From a virus: DNA of 20,350 nt. Shown in pieces: positions 18,327 through 20,350 of this stretch; position 1 is the first letter of the stretch; each line of letters opens with the position of its first letter. Below the pieces are notes generated by a model. The model made no database searches. It had not been told where the DNA came from and was given only the letters and a program-made list of their open reading frames with translations. Location: the IMG/VR virus record IMGVR_UViG_3300028895_000574, positions 1 to 20,350 of that record; one strand, 5' to 3'. The position numbers and the translations under genes were made by a program.

Positions 18327-19024
18327 TGGATGTTAAAGAACAAATACTAGAGCATGCTAAGCAAGAGTACCCGAATGAATGTTGCGGGGTAGTCATAATC
18401 TTCAAAGGCAAAGAACGCTACCATCCTTGTAAGAATCTAGCCACTGAAGCAGATGATAACTTTATCCTTTCGCCGGTTGATTATGCCGAGGCAGAAGACA
18501 AGGGTGAAATAATTAAGATCGTACATTCTCACCCAGCAAGTAATCCTGAGCCCTCACAAGCTGACTTAGTCGGTATCGAGCGATCAGGATTGCCGTGGGT
18601 GATTGTAAACCCCTTGACCGGATCGTTTACTGAGAGCGAGCCCAGCGGCTACCAAGCGCCTTTAATCGGTCGTCGTTTCGTTCATGGGGTGCTTGATTGC
18701 TATGCACTAATTAAAGACTATTACGAAACTATTTTAGAGATAGATATACCTGACTTTGATCGTGAGAACTACTGGTGGGAGAAAGGGCAGAATTTATATG
18801 TTGATAACTTTCAGAAGGCAGGCTTTCACCGAGTGGATGACTTACGCGAGCATGATGGTATAATAATTATGAGCGGATCATCTACCCCGAATCATGCTGG
18901 TGTATACATTGGTGATAATAAAATACTCCATCATGTACAACATCGATTAAGCAGCAGAGATGTTTATGGTGGGTACTGGTTGAAAAATACTTGGGCAGTT
19001 GTACGACACGAGATGTTTTTATGA
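18326..19024 (+). CDS. Tail tip protein K: JAMM + NlpC/P60 peptidase
   Basis: 232 residues with two hydrolase domains, as in lambda gpK. The JAMM (Mov34/MPN) part has Glu18, then HSHP (His67, His69), Ser77 and Asp80, a full zinc-site set. The NlpC/P60 part has Cys125 (GVLDCYALIKDYY) and His190 (PNHAGVYIGD), with a third polar residue likely near His202-203. Both active sites look intact. In phage tails this type of enzyme is thought to cut peptidoglycan or tail components during assembly or infection. Start overlaps the L-like stop (TGATG), and its stop overlaps I (ATGA). Confidence 0.92.
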   Translation: MDVKEQILEHAKQEYPNECCGVVIIFKGKERYHPCKNLATEADDNFILSPVDYAEAEDKGEIIKIVHSHPASNPEPSQADLVGIERSGLPWVIVNPLTGSFTESEPSGYQAPLIGRRFVHGVLDCYALIKDYYETILEIDIPDFDRENYWWEKGQNLYVDNFQKAGFHRVDDLREHDGIIIMSGSSTPNHAGVYIGDNKILHHVQHRLSSRDVYGGYWLKNTWAVVRHEMFL

Positions 19025-19629
19025 AGACAGTACGCCTATACGGCAACCTAGCAAAACGCTTCGGCAAAGAATTCAAGATAGATGTCAAAACACCTATCGA
19101 GGCAGTGCGCGCTTTATCAGTAATCATCCCGGGATTTAAACAGTACATGGCAAAGAATAAAGACATGTACACATTATTTACTGGCTATGATGATAGAGTG
19201 ATCACTCAGTATCATTTACCTTTTTCAGAAAAGACATTACGTATTGTACCCGTTGTCGCTGGCTCTGGTAGTGTAGGCAGGATTATTCTGGGTGTTGCCC
19301 TGATCTTTGTAGCTCCTTATCTGGGAGCGTATGCCAGTGGTCTTGGTCTAGGTGCTGCTGGTCCTTTAACATCGACTGGTATGTTTCTGATGAATGCTGC
19401 TACTAATCTTGGCTTTGCAATGATACTGGGCGGAATATCACAGCTGTTATTCTCGCCGCCATCTCAAGACAGCTATGAATATGCCGCTACTGAGAATAAA
19501 CCCTCTTTTGTATTTAGTGGGGCGATCAATACTACGGCGCAGGGTAATCCAGTACCAGTCGGATACGGCCAATTAAGAATTGGTTCTCAAGTCATCAGCG
19601 CAGGCTTAGAAGCCCAACAGGTAACCTAA
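19021..19629 (+). CDS. Tail assembly protein I
   Basis: 202 residues, lambda gpI type. The N-terminal ubiquitin-like half starts MKTVRLYGNLAKRFGKEF and includes EAVRALSVIIPGFKQY. A hydrophobic Gly/Ala-rich middle follows (IILGVALIFVAPYLGAYASG and GFAMILGGISQLLF), then a C-terminal tail with NKPSFVFSGAINTTAQGNPV and a GYGQLRIGSQVIS ending. Its role is assembly of the tip with J; it is thought not to remain in the mature virion. ATG 19021 lies in the ATGA overlap with K. The alternative in-frame TTG at 18991 would extend into K and is not favoured. Confidence 0.9.
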   Translation: MKTVRLYGNLAKRFGKEFKIDVKTPIEAVRALSVIIPGFKQYMAKNKDMYTLFTGYDDRVITQYHLPFSEKTLRIVPVVAGSGSVGRIILGVALIFVAPYLGAYASGLGLGAAGPLTSTGMFLMNAATNLGFAMILGGISQLLFSPPSQDSYEYAATENKPSFVFSGAINTTAQGNPVPVGYGQLRIGSQVISAGLEAQQVT

Positions 19630-19631
19630 TA

Positions 19632-20350
19632 ATGGAACATATAATCAAAGGCTCTGGTGGTGGTTGTTTTCATAAAGATACTTTAGTACAAACTAAAGAT
19701 GGCACTACTCCTATTGCCGACCTGAAGCCAGGAGACGAGGTCTGGGCGTTTGACGATACTGGTGAACTGTCTTTGCAAGAGGTGTTAGATACTATTGCTC
19801 ACGGCGATGATACGCTGTTCAAATACACCTTCTGGGGCGGTGGTGAGATCATTTGTACCAGCAATCACTGGGTGCTTAATCAGTATAATGCTTTTGTAGA
19901 AATTGGTACGCTATCTGCTGAAGATTGCATCATTGATGCTATCGGTCATCTACGACCAATCAAAGGCTTCGAGATTTATGAAGAGCATGCTCTGGTCTAT
20001 AACTTGACCGTGGCAAATCATCATACCTTTATTGCCAACGGGGTAAGGGTACACAACGGCGGCAAGGGTACTTTCAAAACCATCAAAGGCGCTGGCGGTG
20101 GTGGTGGTAGTAAATCATCCGGTGGTGCCGCCAGACCCGCGGTAGAAGATCCTGATACCTTACATTCTAATCAATATGCCAGAGTGATTGACCTATTATG
20201 TGAGGGTGAAATTGTCGGCTTGGTTGATGGCCTCAAGTCGGTTTACCTTGATGATACACCGGTTCAAAATGCTGACGACAGCATGAACTTTGCGGGGGTT
20301 ACTTTTGAGGAGCGACTCGGCACTCAAGCACAAACCTATATCCCGGGATT
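19632..20350 (+). CDS. Tail tip host-specificity protein J with Hint domain, 3' partial
   Basis: The gene runs off the window after about 239 codons. The recognisable J part begins around residue 180: YARVIDLLCEGEIVGLVDGL, then KSVYLDDTPVQN and FAGVTFEERLGTQ, matching lambda J's early segment. J contacts the host outer-membrane receptor and sits at the tail tip. Inserted before it is a Hint (intein-like) domain at residues 12-142. The N terminus is MEHIIKGSGGG. After the Hint come GGKGTFKT, IKGAGGGGGSK and a short linker. The start is ATG 19632, two bases after the I stop; no strong ribosome site is visible. Self-processing would separate the first 11 residues from J, or splice them. Confidence 0.9.
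   Translation, partial: MEHIIKGSGGGCFHKDTLVQTKDGTTPIADLKPGDEVWAFDDTGELSLQEVLDTIAHGDDTLFKYTFWGGGEIICTSNHWVLNQYNAFVEIGTLSAEDCIIDAIGHLRPIKGFEIYEEHALVYNLTVANHHTFIANGVRVHNGGKGTFKTIKGAGGGGGSKSSGGAARPAVEDPDTLHSNQYARVIDLLCEGEIVGLVDGLKSVYLDDTPVQNADDSMNFAGVTFEERLGTQAQTYIPG
19644..19664 (+). repeat. Left 21-bp direct repeat flanking Hint
   Basis: It begins ATCAAAGGC and ends GGTGGT, encoding IKGSGGG (residues 5-11), and abuts the Cys codon that starts the Hint domain. It matches the copy at 20082-20102 at 19 of 21 positions. Confidence 0.75.
19665..20057 (+). other. Intein-like Hint (BIL-type) domain inside J
   Basis: 131 residues, mini-intein size, no homing endonuclease insert. Block A begins at Cys12 (CFHKDTLV). 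A PGDEV motif follows at 33-37. Block B has Thr76-x2-His79 (ICTSNHWVL). Block F is VYNLTVANHHTFIANG (122-137). Block G ends His141-Asn142. All catalytic residues for N-terminal acyl shift and Asn cyclisation are present. The next residue is Gly143, not Cys/Ser/Thr, so standard splicing is not expected. That matches bacterial intein-like (BIL) domains, which can cleave or, in type A, sometimes ligate without the +1 nucleophile. Confidence 0.88.
20082..20102 (+). repeat. Right 21-bp direct repeat flanking Hint
   Basis: It encodes IKGAGGG (residues 151-157) and lies 24 bases after the Hint end. The offset from the left copy is 438 bases, exactly 146 codons, so loss between copies would be in frame. 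Confidence 0.75.

Follow-up and report, generated by a model that had tools for sequence, protein, structure and literature searches.

Inteins in phages are found mostly in enzymes, and cleavage of gpJ is not known to be part of tail hub assembly. For A-type BIL domains, attack of an amino group on the thioester is the proposed mechanism of splicing, and at the BUBL1 locus Ub-like modules precede the BILs. A-type BILs are defined by a terminal His-Asn pair and a variable, mostly non-nucleophilic +1 residue (PMC7765530, PMC7664689), and cleaved products predominate where a BIL domain has no nucleophile at +1 (PMC7664689). Here we describe a Hint domain that lies near the N terminus of a tail protein J. 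The domain itself is BIL-like and of an already known kind. We found no description in the open-access literature of a Hint fixed in the tail hub, of the motif on both of its sides or of the recurrence at gpI.

Results

The window, that is, the whole stretch of DNA analysed, is a 20,350-base IMG/VR fragment in which J is truncated at residue 239, the C-terminal part of the protein lying beyond the window. The J start is set at the ATG at 19,632, the earliest ATG, GTG or TTG past the preceding in-frame stop, and the frame is open to the contig end. PHROG_31 ('central tail fiber J') matches residues 141-239 with E 2.4e-31, in agreement with the sequence-only reading, which had put the Hint after a Gly-rich leader of 11 residues and ahead of the J body. 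The genes run in the order tape measure, short tail protein gene, L-like (17637), K-like (18326), I-like (18991) and J, which by sequence is the arrangement of a lambda-type tail. The stop of the gpI-like gene is 2 nt ahead of the J start; the TTG listed as the start of this gene may be too far upstream, the conserved match starting at residue 11. The hallmarks of a lambda-type gpJ, J hub domains with a gpI gene upstream, are thus both present. Features are listed in Table 1.

Table 1. Positions of the J gene features and neighbouring elements in the window, with the gpI-Hint reading frames of other records
Feature	Coordinates	Strand	Evidence or remark
gpI-like tail-tip gene, directly upstream of J	18991..19629	+	PHROG_32, E 1e-52
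J leader (N-extein) MEHIIKGSGGG, residues 1-11; copy 1 of motif hIxG[AS]GGG	19632..19664	+	Hint-free J proteins open with the same motif
A-type BIL-like Hint domain of 131 aa, from C12 through H141-N142	19665..20057	+	Profiles, fold, relatives
Cys12, first residue of the Hint and predicted nucleophile of the N-S acyl shift	19665..19667	+	Cys in 171/171 distinct relatives
Block B TSNH (T76-S77-N78-H79), the TxxH motif	19857..19868	+	No variation at T76, N78 or H79 across 64 aligned rows
Blocks F and G, YNLTVANHHTFIANGVRVHN; Asn142, predicted C-terminal cleavage residue	19995..20057	+	TIGR01443 at 122-142; HN in 171/171
C-extein start GGKGTFKTIKGAGGGG, +1 = Gly143; holds leader motif copy 2 (TIKGAGGGG)	20058..20105	+	
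Remaining Gly/Ser linker and start of J body (HDII region), ends with contig	20106..20348	+	PHROG_31, NF049904 lambda_TipJ
gpI-Hint ORFs: L306, L316, L376-L385			Mostly IMG isolate-genome records

Pfam PT-HINT (PF07591) matches residues 18-143 of J (E 1.7e-10, 41.7 bits against a cut-off of 27.7), and Pfam Hint, Hint_2 and Intein_splicing score slightly under their respective cut-offs. The NCBIfam intein models find an N-terminal region at 12-82 and a C-terminal region at 122-142. In an AlphaFold2 model based on 64 aligned relatives, ten-residue blocks over residues 11-140 have a mean pLDDT of 94-98, and residues 1-8 and 149-165 fall below 50; the window Hint is a confidently predicted Hint fold between flanks predicted to be disordered. 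Among solved structures, the fold comes closest to BIL2 of the Tetrahymena BUBL1 locus, C. thermocellum BIL4 and gp41-1, and the top PDB match of the family profile is C. thermocellum BIL4 (2lwy, E 2.1e-14). All features that characterise the Hint superfamily, namely the horseshoe beta fold, C1, the block B TxxH and the C-terminal blocks, are found in the domain. The complete motif set and the borders first read from the letters are borne out by the profiles, by the predicted fold and by C12, T76-H79 and H141-N142.

The whole window Hint, used as a single-sequence query against viral contigs, gave no matches. The family was reached with a query of the motif region (NHWVLNQ...GHLRPI), and the pattern NHWVLNQ was used in three collection scans; motif and profile searches together find Hint relatives in at least 578 stretches of IMG/VR. 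Because NHWVLNQ served as the search pattern, its invariance stems partly from selection of the sample. Six complete Hints that were reached through the J body alone all have C1, TxxH and HN, with TPNH and TGNH among their block B forms. Across the 171 distinct full-length Hints, Cys1 and the terminal His-Asn are present without exception, which excludes a chance occurrence of the motifs. The sequence-only reading had named loss of motif residues in close relatives as a reason to abandon it; the check revealed no such loss of Cys1 or HN.

Length is equally constant, at 129-131 aa in all but one of these copies, and 28 relatives aligned with the window Hint are 44-54% identical to it. The +1 residue is Ala in 150 of the 171, Gly in 18, Ser in 1, Thr in 1 and absent in 1, that is, Ala or Gly in 168/170. 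Gly occupies +2 in all 168 counted cases and -1 in 164 of 166 counted leaders. At 166 of 167 testable loci gpI is found immediately 5' of Hint-J, usually with a 4-base overlap.

Bacterial genome contigs yield five strong matches. Four are J-type loci; they include a termite Betaproteobacteria MAG and an Oxalobacter single-cell-type record (L204), the latter pointing to a possible host group. The fifth is a protein of a Flavobacterium MAG, with no J. This protein (L203) ends in a close Hint relative followed by GGKGKFKASK, similar to GGKGTFKTIK of the window. None of 50,697 named phage records contains the Hint-J family, an absence that is only mildly telling, given how seldom the family is encountered even in IMG/VR. 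A further set of large Rhodobacteraceae and Hyphomicrobiales proteins (L209-L226) has a distant Hint, with N and C halves in separate open frames in several. A split Hint at these loci (Rhodobacteraceae, Pseudovibrio and others) was considered and set aside: the frames read in L221, L225, L206 and L207 belong to large proteins of bacteria that carry a distant Hint but are not linked to a J.

Hint-free J relatives share the N terminus M..hIxG[AS]GGGGGKGGGG. The Hint interrupts the Gly run of this native leader, and hIxG[AS]GGG reappears right behind the domain. In 13 of 29 lineages the variable residue x is identical in the two motif copies, where shuffling gives 5.0; none of 20,000 shuffles reached the observed 13, although the test ignores phage kinship and so overstates significance. 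A recent DNA duplication of the leader is ruled out, as the copies use different synonymous codons. The second copy is missing behind the Hint in L048 and L297, and in these two precise excision and joining would produce a native leader (MAQKEIIGSGG-GGGGKGGG and MRQIQGSGGGG-GGGGGKDSG, respectively).

Calculated over 44 disjoint close pairs, the Hint has a dN/dS of 0.083 and the J body one of 0.175. The most constrained stretch is +1 to +4, at 0.023, and the leader shows 0.175, or 0.25 ahead of the Gly run. These low ratios indicate that the Hint, the residues after the cut and the leader are all maintained as protein. Retention of Cys1 would be useless if only Asn-driven cleavage counted, so thioester formation at the N-terminal end probably takes place.

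Presence of the Hint is patchy. The J bodies of L337 and L372 are 97% identical over 300 residues and only one of the two proteins has a Hint, which is therefore dispensable at that scale; J can work without it. The J-body tree requires at least 12 changes of Hint state, at least six of them forced by well-supported branches. Distances between Hints and between J bodies correlate (Mantel 0.76, with 0 of 1000 permutations as high), so the Hint is mostly inherited together with J.

Other Hints are found at the same junction. At L297:2479-3000, a different Hint subfamily of 152 aa is inserted at the identical J leader site, ahead of a J body near that of the window. In ten contigs, whose gpI proteins are all distinct, gpI has at its C terminus a Hint of a third family (GG[GT], then CPAPWVPI...HTY...SHN); this Hint follows GGG or GGT, has only a short tail after it, and the downstream J is Hint-free where inspected. 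This family has no Pfam match, yet its predicted structure is a Hint fold; Burkholderiales genomes contain only weak, distant matches to it. Placement of a Hint at the I/J junction has, judging from these unlike sequences, arisen more than once.

Further long tail-fibre-like proteins (L386, L387, L388 and L394) also have the CPAPWVPI Hint, at their C terminus or close to it, and a single record, the L378 phage (G004), has both a gpI-Hint and a second CPAPWVPI Hint in a tail-fibre-like protein. gpI and gpJ are joined in one chain by a Gly-rich linker without a Hint, clearly so in L321 and L325; L304 has I-like sequence upstream of J as well, and L354 has a long leader. No single I-Hint-J chain occurs in the sample examined.

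Discussion

We infer the cutting, its product, its timing and its purpose as follows. Once folded, the A-type BIL-like Hint near the N terminus of the J precursor would remove itself. Cys12 would convert the Gly11-Cys12 bond to a thioester, and Asn142 would cyclise, breaking the chain ahead of Gly143. The usual transesterification is impossible because the +1 residue is Gly (Ala in most relatives), and cleavage at both ends is therefore the expected main outcome. Mature J would start with GGKGTFKTIKGAGGGGG... at Gly143, with the leader motif placed as at the N terminus of Hint-free J, and the leader peptide MEHIIKGSGGG and a 14-kDa Hint would be released. Since the motif recurs behind the Hint, a J cut at Asn would keep a native-like N terminus. 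The likely purpose would be to delay or set the J N terminus, which lies where gpI and J meet in the tail hub, pending the folding of J or its encounter with partners. That the mature J N terminus is set by Hint self-processing, mainly cleavage at both ends, has in our estimate about an even chance of being correct. Given the same intact domain at one site in hundreds of uncultured phages, a cutting step probably belongs to the making of the tail tip in Hint-J phages. No report that Hint-J processing has been observed was found in the literature.

Some features count against cleavage. The leader is under protein-level selection and keeps the J motif, neither of which a discarded peptide would seem to need, and a simple cut in L048 and L297 would leave J without the motif. 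The J of close relatives, with bodies 97% identical, also works with no Hint at all.

The main rival is protein splicing, in which the Hint leaves and the leader is joined to J (MEHIIKGSGGG-GGKGTFKTIKGAGGGG...), probably through attack of the freed C-extein amino group on the thioester; mature J would keep its Met-initiated leader and one or two motif copies. Splicing would rebuild the exact native leader in L048 and L297 and is consistent with a leader that matches Hint-free orthologues (L347 MTQTKYVQGAGGG vs L198 MTQTKYVVGAGGG) and is under purifying selection, as well as with retention of both Cys1 and HN. The recurrence of the leader motif and the selection on it make splicing a more serious rival than the sequence-only reading had allowed. 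That reading favoured cleavage on account of the non-nucleophilic Gly143, an expectation that holds up: Ala or Gly stands at +1 in 168/170, and BILs without a +1 nucleophile chiefly cleave (PMC7664689). Furthermore, the duplicated motif of a spliced product has no counterpart among the Hint-free J proteins compared. We view splicing as possible, though doubtful.

The Hint might instead be a selfish or neutral insertion, resembling a mini-intein, that a permissive Gly-rich linker tolerates; it would persist through self-removal and have no role in the tail. Its patchy presence, with at least 12 state changes on the J tree and at least six of these forced, fits such an element, as do the 97% identical J bodies of L337 and L372 that differ in the Hint, and linkers accept insertions. 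At 129-131 aa, however, the domain has no endonuclease; the distance correlation (Mantel 0.76) indicates that it is largely inherited with J, selection on +1 to +4 is strong, and unrelated Hints sit at the same junction. We consider this explanation unlikely.

More broadly, the junction of gpI and J in lambda-like tail tips could be a recurrent site of Hint-driven joining or transfer, where a thioester at a Gly-rich stretch would attach the J leader or gpI covalently to another subunit during assembly, the Hint acting as an intein-like crosslinker or timer in the virion; we find this idea improbable. In its specific form, a nucleophile of a neighbour would take over the leader, or gpI itself in gpI-Hint phages, from the thioester, and the tail tip would thereby be crosslinked. 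Gly at -1 in 164/166 counted leaders, the BIL2 of the Tetrahymena BUBL1 locus among the structural neighbours, and the C-terminal Hint of gpI with GGG before it and only a short tail behind would all suit such a transfer. No acceptor has been identified, however, and inspection by eye of the gpI C termini of Hint-J phages revealed neither a partner motif nor any correlated feature, which leaves the transfer very improbable. An inactive Hint, never cut and built into the tail tip as a structural element, is scarcely credible, given catalytic ends that are absolutely conserved in 171 copies.

If the domain does cut itself, an autocatalytic step would be added to siphophage tail assembly in hundreds of environmental phages. 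The family would also be a natural source of Hint domains of 130 residues that function within Gly-rich linkers and accept Ala or Gly as the +1 residue. Compared with the initial reading, the analysis adds the leader motif behind the Hint, the tightest constraint at +1 to +4 and the Hints on gpI.

Comparison with known systems

The window J resembles lambda gpJ and PHROG_31 in its J body and in the L-K-I-J gene order; it differs from the known J proteins of named phages, which have no Hint of this family (0/50,697 records). The best viral structure match in BFVD is putative gp62 of an uncultured virus (A0A218MKA3), 41% identical over the Hint region. This is an unexplained entry for which no literature description was found, and it accords with the sequence-only reading, in which Hints occur in J-type proteins but lack an established role.

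Class 1 mini-inteins of phages (terminase, helicase, RNR; gp41-1) share the fold, with gp41-1 (6qaz) at TM 0.89 by target, and share splicing chemistry up to the thioester, as predicted for Hint-J. Unlike them, Hint-J has no Cys, Ser or Thr at +1 and lies outside an enzyme active site. Identity to phage inteins is about 25-34% over the full domain, and the Intein_splicing model stays slightly under its cut-off. The PT-HINT of polymorphic toxins is similar to the window Hint, which scores above the Pfam cut-off, and is likewise predicted to cut itself. In those proteins a toxin domain is found downstream, whereas Hint-J has a J body downstream in every full-length case inspected.

The A-type BILs are nearest. 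C. thermocellum BIL4 (2lwy), the best PDB sequence match of the family and the second-best kind by fold, shares with Hint-J the fold, Cys1, TxxH, the block F pattern 'YN.xV...HT[FY]', HN and a non-nucleophilic +1. Hint-J thus has the HN end, the non-nucleophilic +1 and, as its nearest sequence, a known A-type BIL. BILs have been described in hypervariable, non-conserved bacterial proteins; Hint-J departs from that location, which is a descriptive trait and not a chemical one, and is found instead at a constant position in a hub protein of the virion that is itself conserved. Also unlike BILs, it sits within a motif that recurs on both of its sides, and its +1 to +4 residues are constrained.
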